Part shown: positions 4,916 through 62,384 of the stretch, piece by piece
Numbering within the stretch: the stretch's first letter is position 1
Layout of the letters: each line of letters starts with the position of its first letter
Origin: Roseofilum reptotaenium CS-1145
Lineage (GTDB): Bacteria > Cyanobacteriota > Cyanobacteriia > Cyanobacteriales > Desertifilaceae
Direction: 5' to 3'
Assembly (NCBI RefSeq): GCF_028330985.1
Contig: NZ_JAQMUE010000074.1
Coordinates: 124,001 to 188,000 of the forward strand
DNA length: 64,000 nt
Notes under the pieces: generated by a model
The model's input: only the letters and a program-made list of their open reading frames with translations
Told to the model about the DNA's origin: nothing
The model's database searches: none
Translations under genes and position numbers: made by a program

Positions 4916-6013
4916 CTAGAAAACACAGGGGAAGGTAACGGTAAAAGCACTTCCCTTTCCTTGTTCACTCTCCACCATGATTTCACCTCCATGGAGATCA
5001 ATTAAGCGTTTCACAATGGAAAGTCCTAAGCCAGTTCCGGGGATTTTCCCCACATTCGCGCCTCGTTCAAACCGTTGAAACAGTTTTTGTTGATAGTCTA
5101 GAGGTAACCCAATCCCTTGGTCTCGAACTGCAAGCCTAATCTCAGATTCAGTTTGGGTAATATCAAGCTTAACAGTTCCTCCATTTGGGGAATACTTGAT
5201 GGCATTCGAGAGCAAATTCGAGAGAACATGGCGTAGAATCATAGCATCAAGATTAATAATCCGGTTTTCTCCATAAAGGGTCAGCACTAAGTTATGCTTA
5301 GAAGAGGCAATCACTTTGATTTCTTCAATAATCTCTTCACAAAACTCGACTACATTAATCTGTTCCGGATTAAACTCTAACTTGCCAAATTCAGTCCGGC
5401 TTAATGTGAGAATATCTTCCAATAACTGATGCATATGCTGTGCTGCGGTTTGAATGCGCTTTAAGTGCTTCTCTTTTTTCTCTTCCGTTAGTTTATTACC
5501 ATAACGTTGTAACATTCCTGCCGACATTTGAATTGCGGTTAAAGGCGTTTTCAAGTCATGGGACGCGATCGAGATGTATTCTGTTTTTTCTTGACTTTTA
5601 GATTTTGCCTGAGCTAACGAAGATTCTATATTTAAGCTTTCCTGATATTTTTTTAACGTCATTTTAATCGTGGCATGAACTTCCCTTTCCTTAAAAGGTT
5701 TGAGTAAATAGCCATAAGAGCCGGTTTCTTCAGCACGGGACAAGGTCTCATCATCAGCATAAGCCGTTACATAGATAACTGGAATATTATATTGTTTTCT
5801 AATTTCTTCTGTAGTTTCAATACCATCCATATCCCCTTTAATCACAATATCCATTAGAATTATATCAGGAATAATCTCTCTAATTTTATTGAGAGCTGCT
5901 TTTCCAGAAGAGACAATCCCCACTACTTCATAGCCTAATTTTTGTAATTTACGGGCTAATCCTTTGGCAATCAGTAATTCATCCTCAACAATTAAAATTT
6001 TGACAGGAGACAT
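4916..6013 (-). CDS. Response regulator-histidine kinase (REC-HisKA-HATPase)
   Basis: A 365-residue cytosolic protein. Residues 5-120 are a receiver with phosphoacceptor D55 (LMDIVI), T84 region (YVTAYADD) and K106 (LLKPF). After a short coiled coil comes HisKA with H152 in SHDLKTPLTAIQMS, then the ATPase domain with N box NLLSNAIKYSPNGG, G1 box DQGIGLP and G2 box GTGLGLSIVKRLIDLHGG. The receiver lies before the kinase, so it is probably controlled by phosphorylation from another kinase. It starts only 2 bases after the stop of the 1930-residue kinase and is surely co-transcribed with it, which makes that kinase the likely phosphodonor. There is no output domain, so the final target is elsewhere. 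Confidence 0.9.
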   Translation of the reverse strand: MSPVKILIVEDELLIAKGLARKLQKLGYEVVGIVSSGKAALNKIREIIPDIILMDIVIKGDMDGIETTEEIRKQYNIPVIYVTAYADDETLSRAEETGSYGYLLKPFKEREVHATIKMTLKKYQESLNIESSLAQAKSKSQEKTEYISIASHDLKTPLTAIQMSAGMLQRYGNKLTEEKKEKHLKRIQTAAQHMHQLLEDILTLSRTEFGKLEFNPEQINVVEFCEEIIEEIKVIASSKHNLVLTLYGENRIINLDAMILRHVLSNLLSNAIKYSPNGGTVKLDITQTESEIRLAVRDQGIGLPLDYQQKLFQRFERGANVGKIPGTGLGLSIVKRLIDLHGGEIMVESEQGKGSAFTVTFPCVF

Positions 6014-6015
6014 AA

Positions 6016-9000
6016 TTATACCCTCTGACGATACTTTAACTCTGAAAATCGTAATTCAAATGTTGTGCCATGGTCTCTGAATAATGTGATTTCACCTTCT
6101 AACTGTTCCGTTAGGGTACAAACCAACTCCATGCCCAAAGAATCAACCTTGCGAAAATCCAAGTCTTCTGGAAAACCAATTCCATTATCCGCTACTTTGA
6201 CGACAATTTGATTGTTATCTTTTTGATACATAATTACCTCCACTTTTCCTATTTTTTCTTCAGGAAAAGCATGTTTTAAAGTATTGGACAATAACTCATT
6301 TACAATTAAGCCACAGGGATGAGCTGTTTCTATATTTAATAGAACGGGTTCGATATCCAAATAAAATTTAACCTTATTGTCTTCTACATTATAGGATTCA
6401 AACAAATTGAGGACTAAATCTTGCAAATATTCACCAAAATTAATCGTATCTAGGGTCATCGACCGATAGAGTTTTTCATGAATCAGAGCCATGGAATAAA
6501 TACGATTGCGACTATCTTCCAAAACTTTAATTAACGTCGGATCGCTAACATAATCTGCTTGAAATTCCAATAGATTAGAAACGACCAATAAATTATTTTT
6601 AACTCGATGATGAATTTCTTTTAAGAGAATTTCTTTTTCTTGCAAAGAAGTCACCAATCGACTTTCAGCTTGTTTGCGATCGCTAATATCTCGATACATC
6701 CATAGATGTCCGCGATCAATAGAGTCAATCAATATAGGAACATAATTTTGTTCTAAGATGCGACCATCAGCCAATTTGATTTCCTGGTTGGTCACTATTT
6801 TATTATGGGCGACAATATCTTGATGGTGTTGACTAATTTCTTCTGGGCGATCAAATAAATGTGAAAATTCATCTCCAATATTTCCCCATTCTTGCCCAAT
6901 TAATTGTTCAGAACAATTTGTGGTTTTGAATAGATGACAAAATGTTTGGTTGATTAACGCGACTTTATGATGTTCATCCTTAACTAAAACACCCAGTTGA
7001 AGATTGGAAATTAAGCTGGTTAATCGAGAAGTTGTTTCTTGTAATTTTTGTTCGATTCGCTTGCGATCGGTAATGTCAATCCAATAGCCAATAATTTCTA
7101 GAGGATTACCTTCTTCATCACGGACTAAATTGAGTTTGTCGTAGATCCAAATATATCTGCCATCTTTATGTAAAAAACGGTATTCATGGCTATAAAAACC
7201 CTGGTCAAATAAACGCTTTAAGCCATGCTGACTGATTTTGACTTGATCTTCTGGATGCAGATGAGTCCACCAAAAGTTTTCCTCAAACATTTCCAGTAAT
7301 TCATAGCCAATAACATCATAGGCATTGTCACTCACAAATGTAAGCTCTAAGCTATCATTTGCCCGCAAACTATATAAAATACCAGGACTAGAAGAGAGTA
7401 AATATTGAATCCTTTCTTGGCTCATTAATAAAGCTGTTTCAGCAACAATTCGTTCTTTAAGCTCTCTTTGCAGTTGCTGATAAAATTCTGATTGTTGGAT
7501 AGCGATCGCTAATTGGGAAGCAATCTGTTTCAATAACTCAATTTCTTCCTCTTTCCAGTCTCTGACTCGATCGCATTGATGGACAATCAACAATCCCCAA
7601 AGTAAGTTATTTTGAATAATGGGAACTACGATTTTACTTTTGACTTGAAATTCTTGTAAAAACTCAACTAAGCAAGGACGAATATCTGTTTGAGTAACGT
7701 CGGATATGGCATAAGTTTTGCCAGCAAGATATTGATCGTAGCATTCTCTAGGGAAGGTCTCTTCTGGAAATTTTTTATCTAAGGTTCCAGTCCAACCTGG
7801 ATTAACAGCTTCCGCAATTACTTGTCCTGTATAATTGGGTAAAATCCGATAAACTAATACGCGATCGGAGAGTAAAAGCTGTTTGACTTCTTGGACTGTG
7901 GTTCTCAAAATTTCTTGCAGATCTAAAGATTCTCGAATTCGTTGAGTAATCATGCCAAACAGCTCTTCACGTTTAACTTTAGCCAGTAAACGTTCTTCAG
8001 CAACTTTGATTTCAGTGATATTATTTTGAATGCCTAGATAGTGAGTTAAAATACCCTGATCATCATGAATCGGAGAAATAGTAGTTCGATTCCAAAATAA
8101 ACTTCCATCTTTGCGATAGTTTCGCAAGACAACCGTACAGCTTTCTTCATTTTTTAAGGCTTTACGAATCGTTTCAAGTCCCTCTTGCTCACGATCCGTC
8201 CCTTGTAGAATTCGGCAATTCTTACCGATTATATCTTGTGCACAATATCCGGTGACTCGCTCAAAAGCAGGATTAACTGAAATCACGGGAAAATCGGGCT
8301 GTTGAGCATCAATAATAACGATACCATTACTGCTAGCAGCGATCGCTCGTTCACTCAAGCGCAACTGTTCTTCAACTTCCTTACGTTCCGTAATATCAGA
8401 AGCAGCTCCCAAAAGCTGCATCGGTTTTCCCTCGGCATTTCGAGTAAAAATTGTATCTCGACTTACAAACCAATGCGATTCTCCATTGCGATCGAGCATT
8501 CGGTATTCGAGTTCCCAAATGTCTGTATTATTTGCATTCATCAATTCTTGATACCATTGGGCTAGTTTAGGTCGATCTTCTGGATGTAGGAAGTCCTCAC
8601 AGACAATATTGCCCATTTCCTGAACCTCATGGGGAGTATAACCTAAGACTAGAGCAATGTTTTTGTTACTATAAACAGTCTTATGCTGTTCTAAGTCATA
8701 AATATAGAGAATATTCGGACTGGCATCAGCAATACGTTGAATAAATCGCTCGTTCTCTTGCAGAGCTAATTCAGCTTTTTTACGGTGAGTAATATCTAAG
8801 ACTGCGCAAGTAATTCCAATAACCTGGTTCTCTAAATTTGATAAGGGGTCAACAGTTATATCGTAGCACTTCAAATTCCCACGATCGGTGAGCATGACCT
8901 CTTCTCGCACACTGCTCTGAGAATCTAAGGCTTGTTGTTTGATTCGTTCTAATTTTTGGGCATCTTCTGGAGCAAATAAATCTCGATCGGACTTTCCAAT

Positions 9001-11808
9001 TACTGCTTCTGCGGTATAACCGAGAGTGGGATTATAAATCCAGGTATATCGCAGATCTACATCTTGGTTAAAAACGGTAATGGGGGCATTTTTTAGGGCA
9101 ATCCTAAACCGTTCTTCGGCATAACAGAGGGCTTCATTGGCGGTTTCTAAATCAGCCGTGCGTTGAGCCACTTGATCTTCTAGGGTTTGATTGAGATATT
9201 TCAGAGCTTCTTCGGCTTGCTTGCGATCGCTAATATCAGTAATACTGCCCACATACCCTACAATCTTCCCTTCCTCATCTACATCAGCAACCGCCTGACC
9301 CATGACCCAAACCACGCTTCCATCTCGATGTTTAAACCGATACTCAGAAGAAAAGGGACGATACTCCTCAACCGCTTTATTCCACTCCTGAAACACCCGT
9401 TCTGAATCTTCGGGATGGAGGGTTTGCAACCAACCCTCCATCATTGCTTCTTGCGCTGATAGATCGGTCATATCACACCAGCACTGATTGACGTATAAAC
9501 ACAGACCTTGATTATCCGTCTGAAAGATCCCCACAGGAGAAGCAGTGGCTAAAGTTACATAGCGTTTTCGACTCTCTTTTAAGGCTATTTCTATTTCTCG
9601 TCGCTCTGTGATATCTCGACCAACGGCGTAAAAATAGGATTCGTCGGTCGGCATAGCCGTCCAAGCAATCCATCGATAGGAACCATCCTGACAGCGATAC
9701 CGATGTTCAAAATTAACGGTGGGAACTCTAGAGGCAAGTTGTTGTACTTGAGCTTGGGTGGCTGCTAAATCATCGGGATGGATGAAGTCAAATAAGCTCC
9801 TCGATTGCAGTTGATGTGAGCTATATCCTAAGAGTCCTTGAAAACGAGGGTTGATCCGTTTAAAAGAACCGTCAAAAGTAATAATACAAAACAGATCGAG
9901 GGAAAGGTTAAAAAATTGGTTTAATTCTTCAGTGAGTCGATGTTGCTCCAGGAAAGAAGCCAATAAATGGGCAATTGCCTCCAAAAATTGCACTTCATCA
10001 GGATTAAAATGACGATGCTCTCTGCTATGGACTCCCAATACTCCAAAGGGTTGTTTTACACCAGGAATAATGGTGGTTATGCTACTGATGATTCTACGAT
10101 TATTATGTAACGCCGCCCCTCGAAACCGAGTTTCTATCTGTAGATCGTCTACAATGACAGATTGGCCACAGGATAAAGTATATCCCGGCTGTGTATTTTT
10201 TGTGGCACCAAGAGTCGGTTGTTCAATGGAATGATGAAGATCGTGATGATAACAAGAAGTAAATCCATGGGCAGCTTGCATTTGAAATGCTGCTTGATTG
10301 GGCAATAATTCCAGAATTTCTACATAATCAACACTTAGAGTTTTGGCAACTTGCTGTACAATTTCGTTCATCAGACTCTGTAAGTCTGTAGCTGTGATCG
10401 CATACTGGCTTAAATAGGTTAAGGTTTGTTGTTGGCGATCGCGAAACCGAAGCTGGATTTGAGCTTCCTGTCGTCGGCTTAAATCTATTCCAGTAATGAT
10501 CGCATGGGTTACAATCCCCCGGTCGTGAAAGATCTGGTTTGACCACTCAATACGGCGTTTTTTACTACCTTGAATCACCCAGTGGCATTGATAAGCCCCA
10601 GTAGATTCTCCCTGGAGTGCTTGCCCAATCACGTGTTTAATCTGAGGTTGTTCGGCTACGGGAATCAGAAATTCCCAAAATCGCTGACCTTGAGCCTGTT
10701 GTTCCAGAACACCACTTAAACGTTGGCAGGCATTATTAAAGTAAATAATTTCACCCTGTTGATTAACGACCACCACTAACGCATCAACTGCACTGAGAAT
10801 GGCATGGGTAAAGTTCTTTTCTTGTTCCAACGTATAGTGCATCCATTGATGTTCCCTCAGTTGGGTAGGTAAATCTTGGAACGGTAAGCTTTGTTTGAGG
10901 CAGATCGCCAATTGATCCGCTTGCTGTTTAAGAAAGGCTTCATCGTTTCTAGACCAATACCGAGGGGCGATCGCCTGTTGTGCGGTTAGCAATCCCCAGA
11001 GATGATTCTCTTGGAGAATGGGAACCACCAAATTCGCCTTGACCTGAATTTGCCGTAAGAATTCCACATGACAAGGGGTTAAGCCTCCTGATTCAATATC
11101 GTGGGTAACTTGAGTTCGGCCATTGATGTAGGCTTTAAACAGATCTTCACCAAAATGAGAATCCTTAATCTTTATACCTAATAAAGATTTACATAAGGGA
11201 TATACAGATTCTGCAATTACCGTACCACCACCATCCGGTTCAAAACGATAAATTAAGACTCGATCGCACTTTAAACCCTGATGAATTTCTGTAACTGTGC
11301 GATCCAGAAGCGTCTGAAAACCAATGTTGTGGCGATCATCAGATTTTTTGTGTATTGCTTGAAGTTGTGCCAAGCCATAGTAAACAGAGATCGCATCTAA
11401 ATCTTGTAAGCTTTTTTGCAGATCGTGGGCACAGACTACGCCCATGATATTCTGTTGGAGATTGAGTATAGGTAAATACTCGATTTGCTCCTCAACCATC
11501 AGTTTCGTGACGGCCAACAGATCTAAATCTGGTTGCCACGTTAAACTACAACCCTGGGGAGTCATGACTCGCTCAACACTCACCGATCTCCATTTTTGCC
11601 AATGGGTGCGAATCTGATGATAATCCGATACCGTTATCATCCCTAATACTTGCTGGTTTTGGCTGACCACAAGATAAGGATAGGGCGATTCACGATTCCA
11701 AAACGCGATCGCTTCCTCTACACTGAGATCCGGGGAAACCACAACAGGGTGACGATCCAGTACACTTTCTAAACTTGGTAATTGAAAAGATACAGAAGCA
11801 AAGGACAT
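6016..11808 (-). CDS. Giant multi-sensor histidine kinase with CBS, GAF, PAS and LOV-like domains
   Basis: A 1930-residue soluble kinase. In order: two CBS domains (about 10-135); a GAF (about 165-305) with C246-H247 in a GLTPCHVEF context like bilin-binding GAFs; a PAS (about 330-450); a GAF (about 475-620); several PAS domains (about 625-1140); a LOV-like PAS (about 1150-1265) with C1198 in GKNCRILQG plus NPAFERVTGY, LRNYRKDGSLFWN and YLGIQNNIT; another GAF (about 1280-1430); two more PAS domains (about 1460-1710); then HisKA_2 with H1733 in EIHHRVKNNL and a HATPase with NELLSNTLKHAFPE. HisKA_2 output is common for LOV kinases. No membrane segment is visible. The next gene, 2 bases on, encodes a receiver-kinase. 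Input is probably light and/or small ligands. Confidence 0.9.
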   Translation of the reverse strand: MSFASVSFQLPSLESVLDRHPVVVSPDLSVEEAIAFWNRESPYPYLVVSQNQQVLGMITVSDYHQIRTHWQKWRSVSVERVMTPQGCSLTWQPDLDLLAVTKLMVEEQIEYLPILNLQQNIMGVVCAHDLQKSLQDLDAISVYYGLAQLQAIHKKSDDRHNIGFQTLLDRTVTEIHQGLKCDRVLIYRFEPDGGGTVIAESVYPLCKSLLGIKIKDSHFGEDLFKAYINGRTQVTHDIESGGLTPCHVEFLRQIQVKANLVVPILQENHLWGLLTAQQAIAPRYWSRNDEAFLKQQADQLAICLKQSLPFQDLPTQLREHQWMHYTLEQEKNFTHAILSAVDALVVVVNQQGEIIYFNNACQRLSGVLEQQAQGQRFWEFLIPVAEQPQIKHVIGQALQGESTGAYQCHWVIQGSKKRRIEWSNQIFHDRGIVTHAIITGIDLSRRQEAQIQLRFRDRQQQTLTYLSQYAITATDLQSLMNEIVQQVAKTLSVDYVEILELLPNQAAFQMQAAHGFTSCYHHDLHHSIEQPTLGATKNTQPGYTLSCGQSVIVDDLQIETRFRGAALHNNRRIISSITTIIPGVKQPFGVLGVHSREHRHFNPDEVQFLEAIAHLLASFLEQHRLTEELNQFFNLSLDLFCIITFDGSFKRINPRFQGLLGYSSHQLQSRSLFDFIHPDDLAATQAQVQQLASRVPTVNFEHRYRCQDGSYRWIAWTAMPTDESYFYAVGRDITERREIEIALKESRKRYVTLATASPVGIFQTDNQGLCLYVNQCWCDMTDLSAQEAMMEGWLQTLHPEDSERVFQEWNKAVEEYRPFSSEYRFKHRDGSVVWVMGQAVADVDEEGKIVGYVGSITDISDRKQAEEALKYLNQTLEDQVAQRTADLETANEALCYAEERFRIALKNAPITVFNQDVDLRYTWIYNPTLGYTAEAVIGKSDRDLFAPEDAQKLERIKQQALDSQSSVREEVMLTDRGNLKCYDITVDPLSNLENQVIGITCAVLDITHRKKAELALQENERFIQRIADASPNILYIYDLEQHKTVYSNKNIALVLGYTPHEVQEMGNIVCEDFLHPEDRPKLAQWYQELMNANNTDIWELEYRMLDRNGESHWFVSRDTIFTRNAEGKPMQLLGAASDITERKEVEEQLRLSERAIAASSNGIVIIDAQQPDFPVISVNPAFERVTGYCAQDIIGKNCRILQGTDREQEGLETIRKALKNEESCTVVLRNYRKDGSLFWNRTTISPIHDDQGILTHYLGIQNNITEIKVAEERLLAKVKREELFGMITQRIRESLDLQEILRTTVQEVKQLLLSDRVLVYRILPNYTGQVIAEAVNPGWTGTLDKKFPEETFPRECYDQYLAGKTYAISDVTQTDIRPCLVEFLQEFQVKSKIVVPIIQNNLLWGLLIVHQCDRVRDWKEEEIELLKQIASQLAIAIQQSEFYQQLQRELKERIVAETALLMSQERIQYLLSSSPGILYSLRANDSLELTFVSDNAYDVIGYELLEMFEENFWWTHLHPEDQVKISQHGLKRLFDQGFYSHEYRFLHKDGRYIWIYDKLNLVRDEEGNPLEIIGYWIDITDRKRIEQKLQETTSRLTSLISNLQLGVLVKDEHHKVALINQTFCHLFKTTNCSEQLIGQEWGNIGDEFSHLFDRPEEISQHHQDIVAHNKIVTNQEIKLADGRILEQNYVPILIDSIDRGHLWMYRDISDRKQAESRLVTSLQEKEILLKEIHHRVKNNLLVVSNLLEFQADYVSDPTLIKVLEDSRNRIYSMALIHEKLYRSMTLDTINFGEYLQDLVLNLFESYNVEDNKVKFYLDIEPVLLNIETAHPCGLIVNELLSNTLKHAFPEEKIGKVEVIMYQKDNNQIVVKVADNGIGFPEDLDFRKVDSLGMELVCTLTEQLEGEITLFRDHGTTFELRFSELKYRQRV

Positions 11809-57088: not shown

Positions 57089-59815
57089 TTATTCGTTAAG
57101 GAACTGACTGATGAAGGTTTGTAAGCGTTTGAGTTGGAAACTGTTGGCTAACTGCAACATTTGTTGGGTAAACGGAGTTAAGGTGCGATCGCTGGCTACT
57201 AGATCTTCTGCCACTTCGGTAATCGCTTGAATATCCCCGTCTTGTATAAGAACGAGTAATTGCTCTAAGACTTCGCGATCCGGCACAATCATCCGCTCCG
57301 ATTGGCCTCCATCGGCTCCTTGAGGTGAAGATGAATCTGGAGGAGGGTCTTGATAAACCCACTCTAAATCTAAATGAGCCGAGAGTAACTGAAAGAGTAA
57401 TTTGGCATCTACGGGTTTAGGCAAAAAGTCATGCCCGCCGGTATCTAGGGCACGTTGGCGATCGAGTTCAGAGACAGAAGCGGATGAAACAATGACGATA
57501 GTCTGTTGGAGATCTTTGGATGAATAAACCTGCGTTAAAAATTCAAATCCATCCATTACAGGCATGACTAGATCGGTAATCACTAGATCGGGTTGGACTG
57601 AACGGAGTTGTTCTAATCCTTGTTGACCATTTTCTGCTTCAATGACTTTGAAATCAACGGATTCTAACAGGTTTCGCACAACAGCGAGGTTTTCCCAACG
57701 ATCGTCGATCGCCAGAATGGTACGACGATCGCCTTCATATCCAATGATATTATGACTGCGATCGTCCTTAACTTGCTGCACCCAATCTTCAGCAATGGGG
57801 AGTTCAGTGGTGAAGAAGAATTCACTGCCGACTCCCCGTTGACTTTTAACTTGAATCTTGCCCCCCATCAGTTCTACAATCCGTTGGCTAATGGCTAGTC
57901 CTAGCCCGGTTCCTTCCGATTGTTTTTGGCGATCTCCCACCTGTTCAAACGCTTCAAACAACTTAATGCGATCGGCTTCGGCAATACCAACGCCGGTATC
58001 AATGGCCTTAAATAGAATGGAGGCAGTGGTTTCGGAGAGAGCGAGAACTTCAATCCCTAGGGTTACCGAACCAGAATCAGTAAATTTAATCGCATTACCC
58101 AACAAATTAATCAACACCTGTCGTAGGCGTTTTTCATCGGTTTCTACGCCATCCGGTAAGCTAGAACTGGGTTGATAGATAAACTCAATCCCCTTTTGTT
58201 GAGCTTTAATTTTGCACATTTCCACCACACTTTGCAGCAACGATGGTAAATGTACAGCCTGGGGATTCAGTTCGAGTTTGCGTGCCTCAATTTTAGAGAG
58301 GTCTAAAATATCATTGATTAGGGTGAGTAGATGGGAACCACATTGGTAAATGACATTTATTCCATGACGCTCTTTATCTGCAAGGACTTTAGAGCGGACT
58401 AAAATTTGAGCATAACCGAGAATGCCATTCAAGGGCGTTCGTAGTTCGTGACTCATATTGGCCAAAAAATCACTTTTGGCTTGGTTGGCAACTTCGGCTT
58501 GCTCTTTTGAGCGTTTGAGTTCTTCCGCCCGTTCTTCTAGGGCTTCATTATAACGTTCCATTTCTGCACGAGATGCTTGCAAGGAGGCCGTCATGTTATT
58601 GAACGTTTGAGCCAGAGTTCCAACTTCATCACCCGATTCTACAACCGCTTGAGTGTCTAAATTGCCTGACATCACCCGGTTGGTTACGTCGGTTAACCGA
58701 ATAATGGGTTGGGCAATTTGTCGTCGTAGGGCAATGGCTAAAATAATAGCCATGGATAAAGCGATGAAACCGGCTAGTAATCCTTGCCACTGGGCTTGAC
58801 TTAAACTTTGACTTCCTGCCTGTAAATCTTGGGATAATTGTTCCTGTTGGTGGGTAACAATCGATTCTAATAGGGCCACCATTTCGCGGGTTACTGGTGC
58901 AGCTTCTGTTTTAAACAGGAAAATATCTTCGCGATAACGTTCCCCTTCCACGAGGGTAAAGAGGGCAGCCGTTTCTGCTAAAAACTGCGATCGCCACCCT
59001 TCTACCTTCTCTAGGGCTTGACGCTGTTCTACGGGCAATAGGGACTTCTGCTCTTGGAGCGCTTCCCAAGCCGCATCATTTTTCTTCAGAGCGCTCCCAT
59101 ATTCTAGTCGCAGGGACATATTTTGGGTCGCAATATATCCTTTTAGCTCCCCTAACATGCGGTCAAATGACCCCTGAAACCTCAAGATTTCCTTGAACAA
59201 GGATAAATCTGCGATGGATGAAGCGTTGTCTTCCTGCCAATTGGAAATCTGGTCGATCTCTGCTCTGAGCCTCTCAGCAGGCGCTTCTGCCTGGTCAATA
59301 AAGTGCTTGAGAGCGGGTTGATTCTCGCGGGGGCTATCTTTGAGTAGAAAGAGTTGATCCGGTAGGGTAGACCATTGCTGATAGGCAGCTTTCAATTTCT
59401 CTAGGGATTGAAGATCGATGTCATCGGCGATCGGCTCCTGGCCCAATAGTATCTCCAATTGAGCAAGATTGGCCTCGAATGCCAGCCTCGATTGTTCGTA
59501 CTGAGTCCGAAATCGCGATTCTCCCGTGATGTTATACCCGCGAACATTAAGCAGCATATCTAACAGGTTTTCTTGAGCATTCCCGGAGGCGATCGCCAAA
59601 GGAACTCGTATATTCTGAGTTTGTTGAATTTTCTGGGTGACCCAAAGTCCCGCTAGGTAGCTGCGTCCAGCCACTAAAAAGGTAAGGGCTGCCAGAATGC
59701 CAAAGCTGATATTGAGCTTTTGACTAATATTGAGATGGTAAATTTTATCGTTCCACGAAGTTCTCAAAGACCGGCTGACCTTAGAGATGGTGGGAACTAG
59801 GGAGAGTTTAGCCAT
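57089..59815 (-). CDS. Membrane hybrid histidine kinase with C-terminal receiver
   Basis: A 908-residue kinase. Membrane helix 1 (about 32-56) and helix 2 (about 342-364) enclose a 285-residue all-helical periplasmic sensor. HAMP follows (about 365-420, [20 protein letters not shown]), then a coiled coil, HisKA with H456 in [18 protein letters not shown], HATPase ([34 protein letters not shown]) and a receiver with D748 in [18 protein letters not shown] 60-residue C-terminal helical tail ends it. Signal passes from periplasm to H456 to D748. It lies downstream of mysA's promoter region but is read toward it; whether it regulates MAA genes is not known. A TRAP-type binding protein gene is next upstream. 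Confidence 0.9.
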
Positions 59816-61121: not shown

Positions 61122-62384
61122 TTAACTCTGGATCGGAATTTCAATGGTAAATGTAGTTCCTTTCCCTAGATGAGATTCCACACTCAGTTGTCCTTGGTGC
61201 TTTTCTACCACAATTTGATGAGCGATCGCCAGTCCCAATCCGGTTCCTTTTCCCACCGGTTTAGTGGTAAATAACGGTTCAAACAAACGGGTTTGGATCG
61301 ATTCAGGAATACCGAGACCATTATCGGTAATTTGAATCTCAATTTTGTCTGAGGGCAATAATTTCGTTTGGATTTCAAGCTTGGGGTTGTCTAATTTACC
61401 CTGTAAGAGACTTTCATCTAGAGCATCAATCCCATTGGCCAAAATATTCATAAAGACCTGATTCAGCGGCCCGGGATAGCACAAGACTGGGGGCAGACAA
61501 TTGTAGGTTTTAATGATTTCGATGGGGGCGCGATCGCCACTCCCCTTAATACGATGTTGCAAAATAGTCAGGGTACTATCTAGACATGCGTGTAAGTCTG
61601 CTTCAATTTTTGTTTCGCTATCGGCACGAGAAAAGATCCGTAGAGATTCCGTTATATTTTTGATTCGTTTGACACCAAGAGTAAACGATTCGATGATTTT
61701 CTCCATATCCTCCAGCACAAAATCTAAATCTAAATCATCTATAGCTTTCTCTAATTCTGCTGAGGGTTTAGGGCAGTCTTGCTCGTAGAGATGAAGAATG
61801 TCTTTTACACCTAGGACATAGTCTTTTAATGGTTCAATGTTGCTAGAAAGAAAGGTAATTGGATTATTGAGTTCGTGGGCAATCCCCGCGACCATTTCTC
61901 CTAAACTGGAGAGTTTTTCTTGTTGAACTAACTGAACCTGAGCTTGTTGCAAAGCAGCCGTGCGATCGCGCACTTGGTCTTCTAAAGATTCTCTCAAGTG
62001 TTTGAGTTGCAGATGCACCCGTACTCTTGCTAGGACTTCTTCGCGATCGAAAGGCTTGGGAATGTAATCGACTGCACCTAGAGCAAAGCCTTTCGTTTTG
62101 CTTTCTGTATCAGATAATGCCGTAGCAAAAATAATGGGAATTTTTTCGGTAAGAGGTTTTTCTTTGAGTCGAGAACAGACTTCAAAACCATCCATTCCTG
62201 GCATTTGTACATCGAGCAAGATGAGTTCGGGTTGATTTCGTTCGACAAGGGTGAGGGTACTTTCTCCATCCATCGCTACCCGAAAGCGAAATCCCTCACT
62301 ACTAAGGGCTTCTGAGAGTACGGATAGATTAGTGGGATTATCATCTACAATTAGAATAAACCCAGAATCTTGATTTTTTGGCAT
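61122..62384 (-). CDS. Response regulator-histidine kinase (REC-HisKA-HATPase)
   Basis: A 420-residue cytosolic protein. Receiver at about 8-125 with D58 (LILLDVQMPGMDGFEVC) and K110 (VDYIPKPFDREE); a coiled coil (130-160); HisKA with H170 in GIAHELNNPITFLSSNIEPL; ATPase with N box FMNILANGIDAL and G boxes DNGLGIPES and [14 protein letters not shown]. As in the 365-residue protein at 4916, the receiver comes first. Likely phosphorylated by another kinase, such as the membrane hybrid kinase two genes downstream, but no direct evidence. Confidence 0.9.
   Translation of the reverse strand: MPKNQDSGFILIVDDNPTNLSVLSEALSSEGFRFRVAMDGESTLTLVERNQPELILLDVQMPGMDGFEVCSRLKEKPLTEKIPIIFATALSDTESKTKGFALGAVDYIPKPFDREEVLARVRVHLQLKHLRESLEDQVRDRTAALQQAQVQLVQQEKLSSLGEMVAGIAHELNNPITFLSSNIEPLKDYVLGVKDILHLYEQDCPKPSAELEKAIDDLDLDFVLEDMEKIIESFTLGVKRIKNITESLRIFSRADSETKIEADLHACLDSTLTILQHRIKGSGDRAPIEIIKTYNCLPPVLCYPGPLNQVFMNILANGIDALDESLLQGKLDNPKLEIQTKLLPSDKIEIQITDNGLGIPESIQTRLFEPLFTTKPVGKGTGLGLAIAHQIVVEKHQGQLSVESHLGKGTTFTIEIPIQS

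Follow-up and report, generated by a model that had tools for sequence, protein, structure and literature searches.

Does a very large histidine kinase of the cyanobacterium Roseofilum reptotaenium CS-1145 sense blue light through a LOV domain placed among its many PAS domains, and is blue light then its only light input? The kinase is encoded in the window, the whole stretch of 64,000 nucleotides that was analysed, and an earlier note on this DNA had proposed a blue-light LOV input for it. The sequence supports this proposal, but the picture was incomplete, as two cyanobacteriochrome-type GAF domains of the same protein had been overlooked. Judging from sequence, the protein is in all likelihood a HisKA_2 kinase that combines LOV with cyanobacteriochrome sensors, and a receiver-kinase is encoded alongside it.

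Gene and domain organisation

The Pfam order of domains in the 1930-aa kinase is two CBS, GAF1, one PAS, GAF2, four PAS, LOV, GAF3, two PAS, HisKA_2 and HATPase. The CBS matches fall into two stretches and the GAF matches into three, and the PAS matches form a run, with HisKA_2 and HATPase_c completing the protein. The domain borders come from Pfam and from a LOV-profile alignment, and were partly placed by eye. The features are the following.

4916..6013, minus strand: partner gene, 365 aa, receiver-HisKA-HATPase_c (open reading frame and Pfam; D55 by eye)
6016..11808, minus strand: multisensor histidine kinase, 1930 aa (uninterrupted open reading frame)
6043..6309, minus strand: HATPase_c domain, aa 1834-1922 (Pfam, E 7.1e-10)
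6391..6618, minus strand: HisKA_2 phosphoacceptor domain, aa 1731-1806, with H1734 (Pfam PF07568, E 5.9e-27)
7489..7941, minus strand: GAF3, most likely an RcaE-like cyanobacteriochrome GAF, aa 1290-1440 (PDB phmmer 8k9o, Foldseek)
7633..7635, minus strand: K1392 codon, aligned to the RcaE Lys position (phmmer alignment, 5/5 proteins)
7672..7674, minus strand: C1379 codon, candidate bilin-binding Cys of GAF3 in a Cys-Leu motif (alignments, orthologues)
7759..7761, minus strand: E1350 codon, aligned to the RcaE Glu position (phmmer alignment, 5/5 proteins)
7930..8016, minus strand: linker helix predicted to run unbroken from LOV into GAF3, aa 1265-1293 (helix 121-149 of the AlphaFold2 model)
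8011..8337, minus strand: LOV domain, aa 1158-1266 (Pfam, PDB phmmer, LOV profile, orthologues, AlphaFold2)
8215..8217, minus strand: C1198 codon, predicted flavin-adduct Cys (alignments)
10894..11316, minus strand: GAF1, cyanobacteriochrome-type, aa 165-305 (best PDB phmmer match 6oap, PPHK)
11071..11073, minus strand: C246 codon, candidate bilin-binding Cys of GAF1 (sequence, 6oap alignment, orthologues)
11404..11808, minus strand: two CBS domains, aa 1-135 (Pfam CBS, two stretches)

The HisKA_2 output that had been named earlier is recovered by Pfam (PF07568) together with HATPase_c. H1734, which we take from the motif to be the acceptor histidine, is conserved in five of five proteins. The earlier note calls HisKA_2 the usual partner of LOV in bacteria; an excerpt of PMC4844311 goes no further than stating that histidine kinases make up about half of bacterial LOV proteins.

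The LOV domain around C1198

The four LOV motifs that the earlier note had quoted are all present in the product of the 6016-11808 frame: NPAFERVTGY (1179-1188), GKNCRILQG (1195-1203, with C1198), LRNYRKDGSLFWN (1228-1240) and YLGIQNNIT (1257-1265). Its assignment of Cys, Asn and Gln to the flavin positions of LOV domains holds as well, since nine of nine other key residues are in register beside C1198 in a profile alignment, with a profile built from an alignment that includes the C1198 domain itself. These residues are G1195, N1197, R1199, L1201, Q1202, R1215, N1230, N1240 and Q1261, with R1215 presumably being the second phosphate arginine of LOV domains. The other PAS domains of the protein provide an internal control: the six that are picked up by the LOV profile score 0-3 of nine, and a seventh (about 1598-1715) escapes the profile altogether.

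When the domain was compared with the PDB by phmmer, the best alignments shown were to 7a6p (E 4.2e-37), 8a3u and 7r5n, all of which have the cysteine in DCRFLQ. Lower matches include the blue-light photoreceptor 2pr5 (E 5.8e-27), which we take to be YtvA, and the phototropin 2z6d (E 3.5e-25); several others bear no more specific name than sensory box or PAS sensor protein. Could the cysteine be fortuitous, in a PAS domain of the usual kind that holds no flavin? The protein contains many PAS domains, and C1070 is another cysteine in the aligned column, the sole one among the other PAS domains, accompanied by only G and L of the nine residues. However, the flavin contacts around C1198 are complete and in register, and the best PDB alignments are to LOV-type chains. 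The difference between nine of nine and 0-3 of nine rules out a generic PAS domain, and we regard this explanation as exceedingly improbable.

In YtvA numbering, the residues conserved in LOV domains are G59, N61, R63, F64, L65, Q66, N94, N104 and Q123 (PMC4682037, excerpt), and each residue of this list is matched in the window protein except F64. The alignment check against LOV domains that had been suggested earlier places C1198 at the LOV active site, at the position of the adduct-forming C62 of YtvA, and not outside this site, as a refutation named in the earlier note would have required. The single reported departure from NCRFLQ is confirmed as I1200 at the F64 position. Ile replaces Phe in 12/105 translated matches to a DNA pattern described below. 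Among 158 Cys-LOVs, defined by at least eight of the nine other residues in the deduplicated open reading frames of loci L029-L231, the same column exhibits F in 141 and another residue in 17, nine of which are I; most of these loci had been selected for the Cys motif or for their similarity, and they are not a random sample. As 12/105 and 9/158 carry it, Ile at this position is natural variation, and Phe is treated as the consensus residue and not as a defining one. The published LOV search pattern, [NS]-x(2)-[FPGHSA]-x(4)-[GEQR]-x(9,11)-C (PMC4844311, excerpt), is also matched by eye, with N1179, PA, F, ERVT, G, ten residues and C1198. The C1198 domain thus carries the published pattern, and its sequence makes FMN binding and adduct formation in light very probable.

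The only other LOV-pattern match in the same genome, GQNCRFLQG, lies on contig C72 near 51604 (L037 4066-6747) in an 893-aa open reading frame.

Two GAF domains of the cyanobacteriochrome type

GAF3 starts immediately after the LOV domain. With the single sequence as phmmer query, its best PDB matches are RcaE (8k9o, E 1.8e-47; 7ckv, 3.5e-42) followed by PPHK (6oap, 7e-41), whereas a family-profile search places PPHK first and RcaE second, so that it is the single-sequence search, together with the motif, that supports the assignment to RcaE. E1350 and K1392 line up by eye with a Glu and a Lys of RcaE in the phmmer alignment; we take these positions to be Glu217 and Lys261, members of the protochromic triad. 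The candidate bilin cysteine C1379 is followed by L1380, as in green/red-type domains. Leu after the bilin Cys marks RcaE and CcaS, and RfpA has His there (PMC9415938, excerpt). GAF3 is most likely an RcaE-like green/red cyanobacteriochrome GAF, and from its sequence there is a high probability that it binds a bilin.

GAF1 is also closest to bilin-binding GAFs, with PPHK 6oap (E 4.1e-35) and miRFP670nano (9.7e-31) as PDB matches. C246, within PCHVEFL, is present in five of five proteins and is followed by His, or by Tyr in one congener. DXCF defines a cyanobacteriochrome subfamily with a second cysteine. This second cysteine was sought in GAF1 and is absent, with DSHF (containing D216) or DPHF in its place in all five proteins, and GAF1 was therefore kept out of the DXCF subfamily. 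AlphaFold2 gave a mean pLDDT of 45.2 for GAF1, from an alignment of five rows in which the other four are 76-95% identical to the first. The balance tips only slightly towards bilin binding by GAF1.

As the RcaE-like and the PPHK-like GAF both carry a bilin-type cysteine, the kinase probably receives other colours besides blue. The protein would thus contain two, perhaps three, light-sensing chromophores, and on sequence and model grounds it is probably a multi-colour photoreceptor kinase, in which a tandem of LOV and RcaE-type GAF3, together with the upstream GAF1, would feed HisKA_2. Joint action of LOV and GAF3 in one protein is likewise probable.

Predicted structure of the tandem

The AlphaFold2 model of the LOV-GAF3 tandem, from an alignment of 13 rows, has a mean pLDDT of 85.1 and a pTM of 0.61. 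A helix (1265-1293) leads from LOV into GAF3, and another long helix follows GAF3. As the pTM is modest, the placement of the two domains relative to each other is unreliable. A Foldseek search with the model ranked PPHK first, RcaE seventh and the chimeric LOV kinase SB2F1 at 38; the identity to 8k9o, named as RcaE GAF domain, was 48%.

Conservation and natural replacement of the adduct cysteine

Orthologues were sought in 59 genomes, comprising that of the strain itself and those of 58 relatives. An orthologue of 1930 aa is found in four of five congeners, with 84-95% identity over LOV-GAF3, and the fifth congener yields nothing better than a 37% match. C246, C1198, R1199, Q1202, R1215, N1230, N1240, Q1261, E1350, C1379, L1380, K1392 and H1734 are invariant in the window protein and the four orthologues, one of which has L in place of I1200. 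In the three more distant congeners, identity is 79-89% for LOV, GAF1, GAF3, PAS2 and the kinase, 81-84% for PAS7 and PAS8, and 65-76% for CBS, PAS1, GAF2 and PAS3-5.

In a separate scan of named genomes, the best 80 matches include two more distant orthologues, from Planktothrix sp. PCC 11201 (1601 aa) and from an uncultured Oscillatoriales metagenome-assembled genome (1975 aa), both with 63-64% identity over the tandem. Their LOV domains (the L051/L050 pair) read GKNSRFLQG, the adduct Cys being replaced by Ser in both proteins; eight of the nine other LOV residues are kept, and the second phosphate arginine is Lys. The Cys-Leu, Glu and Lys of GAF3 are, by eye, retained in both, as well as in a homologue from genome G022. 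With GAF1 as query, the sole match in either Ser-LOV orthologue is GAF3, and within the genomes sampled GAF1 thus seems not to extend beyond the genus. Across 165 LOV-like domains, the adduct position is Cys in 158, Ser in five, Gly in one and Ala in one.

The replacement of Cys by Ser and of the second Arg by Lys in these two orthologues indicates that some relatives can do without the LOV adduct; in these, the blue channel may have been lost or altered while the bilin channel was retained. Natural LOV domains that lack the cysteine carry, among other residues, Ala, His or Pro in its place, and LOV domains without it can signal via the neutral semiquinone (PMC4682037, excerpt). Both this signalling route and the Ser proteins, with their eight of nine other residues, would suit an explanation in which the LOV domain is a flavin redox sensor or undergoes photoreduction, forms no Cys adduct, and leaves the actual sensing of light to the bilin GAF. 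Against it stands the retention of C1198 in the window protein and in all four orthologues of the same length, and we judge it improbable for the window kinase, for which we retain adduct formation at C1198.

Ser also replaces the LOV Cys at L054, L055 and L060, in genomes named Phormidium, Leptolyngbya and Myxacorys, where the other residues are nine of nine. This is apparently a separate loss, located elsewhere in a quick tree than that of the two orthologues.

Distribution of LOV domains joined to cyanobacteriochrome GAFs

Scanning 145 genomes of the class with a DNA pattern that encodes G-x-N-C-[RS]-x-[LF]-Q gave 133 matching places in 79 of them, compared with 20 for a reversed-pattern control. 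Dropping 28 of the 133 that do not read C-R-[FILVYMWC]-L-Q, and leaving out two from the strain's own genome, gave 103, of which 100 entered the census and the last three were left out. Eighteen of the 100 regions contain no motif-bearing open reading frame of at least 150 aa. The other 82 have one LOV open reading frame each, 72 of them showing the additional motifs that were looked for. Of these Cys-LOV open reading frames, 7/82 also encode a cyanobacteriochrome-like GAF that has its cysteine, directly after LOV in five (L129, L130, L131, L133 and L199) and further along in two (L195 and L198). Hybrids may be undercounted, as the regions end 6.5 kb on each side or at contig ends. The listing by the Cys-requiring LOV pattern omits the Ser orthologues, and GAF absence there was not counted. 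An eighth flagged hybrid, L147, was dropped for its weak GAF match (71 bits) and for a Cys context unlike that of cyanobacteriochromes.

The homologue from G022 (L034), which belongs to another family, carries behind its LOV a GAF that has the Cys-Leu motif as well as the Glu and the Lys. The five proteins with a GAF directly after LOV, from three other families, exhibit a different arrangement, in which LOV precedes a GAF with two cysteines. DTCF or DTCL, presumably a DXCF-type pattern, occurs where GAF3 has EETF, and is combined with Cys-Tyr or Cys-His. From their sequences, they look like LOV domains fused to two-Cys cyanobacteriochromes. The reverse order is seen at L070 (5417-8047), where a cyanobacteriochrome-type GAF (SPCHVEL) lies upstream of a canonical LOV and of a kinase part 56% identical to that of the window protein.

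In the quick LOV tree with SH-aLRT support (164 rows, many forks unresolved), the 13 tandem rows need five changes, at least two of which are forced by well-supported branches; the shuffled mean is 12.7. More than one fusion of LOV with a cyanobacteriochrome is likely but not proven, because changes on the tree can be gains or losses. Among the open-licence papers listed or excerpted for this analysis, mostly reviews, we found no description of a natural LOV-cyanobacteriochrome protein; a subscription survey could list one.

The distance of 181 residues from the LOV Cys to the GAF Cys is common to 43 of 44 LOV-to-GAF pairs (39/40 with Cys, 4/4 with Ser). As it is the same with or without a bilin Cys, this spacing was dropped as a mark of a hybrid module. 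In 30 of the 44 pairs, the LOV Cys is present and the GAF has no bilin-type Cys. A GAF that follows LOV need thus not bind a bilin, and GAF1 departs from the DXCF pattern with its DSHF; both points would fit a kinase that senses blue light only, in which LOV works and the GAFs have lost bilin binding and taken on structural or small-ligand roles. Such a loss accords poorly with the Cys-Leu, Glu and Lys of GAF3, found in all five same-length proteins, both Ser-LOV orthologues and the G022 homologue, and with the place of GAF3 among the better-conserved domains. We consider a blue-only kinase unlikely and keep to a kinase with both flavin and bilin inputs.

Genomic setting and proposed mechanism

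The partner gene begins two bases past the stop codon of the kinase. It lies downstream of the kinase in four of four congener orthologues and also in both Ser-LOV orthologues, there with 64-65% identity. This adjacency and its conservation make the 365-aa receiver-kinase the likely phosphorelay partner. The genome contains three bilin reductases and two haem oxygenases, which makes a bilin supply likely. No phycobilisome gene occurs among the 28 of the 50 window open reading frames (at least 120 aa) that were scanned, and no output is named there.

Two other observations concern the surroundings. On the same contig, some 8 kb ahead of the first window position (C74:113951-115687), an open reading frame of 1029 aa has three tandem cyanobacteriochrome-like GAF matches. 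Within the window, a HAMP-HisKA-HATPase-receiver kinase (57089-59815, minus strand) lies near a receiver-kinase (61122-62384, minus strand), without known link to the present finding.

In the mechanism that we propose for the flavin- and bilin-sensing kinase, blue light would drive the LOV FMN to a C4a-S adduct with C1198. Protonation of N5 and a flip of Q1261 would then alter the predicted helix 1265-1293 that enters GAF3; the Gln flip after N5 protonation is established LOV chemistry. By analogy with RcaE, GAF3 would carry phycocyanobilin on C1379 and switch between green and red by protonation through E1350, L1380 and K1392. The combined torque, transmitted via the two further PAS domains, would set the autophosphorylation of H1734, and the gene order suggests that the phosphate would pass to D55 of the co-encoded receiver-kinase and on to an unspecified output. 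GAF1 with C246, the CBS domains and the other PAS domains would supply extra light, nucleotide or chemical inputs.

A fuller scenario is put forward tentatively, as possible rather than probable. FMN on LOV and bilins on GAF1 and GAF3 would allow blue, green/red and a third band to be weighed against one another before the receiver-kinase is phosphorylated; such fusions would have arisen several times in cyanobacteria and would form an unrecorded class of hybrids; and the Planktothrix lineage would later have disarmed its blue channel by the change from Cys to Ser.

Comparison with known systems

With known LOV photoreceptors (YtvA, bacterial LOV histidine kinases and phototropin LOV), the window LOV domain has in common the set of Cys, two Arg, Asn, Asn and Gln, the kinase output and, as predicted here, the continuous C-terminal helix into the next module. 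In contrast to them, it has Ile after the Arg, adjoins a bilin-type GAF and sits deep inside a protein of 1930 aa, at roughly the tenth place among its sensor domains.

RcaE and CcaS, which regulate phycobilisome genes and are not known to contain a LOV domain, resemble GAF3 in the Cys-Leu motif and in the Glu and Lys at the presumed protochromic positions, RcaE being the best single-sequence PDB match. The window kinase is set apart from both by its HisKA_2 domain. PPHK (6oap), the closest solved structure to GAF1, is likewise a kinase in which a cyanobacteriochrome GAF is joined by another sensor; in place of LOV, this other sensor is a phosphorylation receiver.

Flavin and bilin photoreceptors are known in cyanobacteria as separate proteins. 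A tandem in one kinase would reveal how two chromophore chemistries are integrated across a single helical linker, as in neochrome, and LOV-GAF3 would give optogenetics a two-colour module of natural origin. The pair of Cys and Ser orthologues would be evolution's own test of the need for a LOV adduct beside a bilin sensor.

Neochrome, the second unit of which is phototropin-like, dualchrome and Ppr are also fusions of a bilin photosensor with a second, blue-absorbing one, but none of them pairs LOV with a cyanobacteriochrome. Compared with the neochrome of algae and ferns, the bacterial two-domain piece is small, about 310 aa, and should be makeable in E. coli. In the excerpts available, neochrome is described from algae, ferns and hornworts and includes a phytochrome-like unit, dualchrome joins phytochrome and cryptochrome (both PMC12558739), and Ppr joins photoactive yellow protein and a bacteriophytochrome (PMC5812497). 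The engineered YHF kinase similarly has LOV and a second sensor, which binds haem, in one kinase; an excerpt of PMC6798134 reports this and discusses tandem sensors. The signals in YHF combine cooperatively, and YHF is man-made, whereas the tandem in the window kinase is natural.
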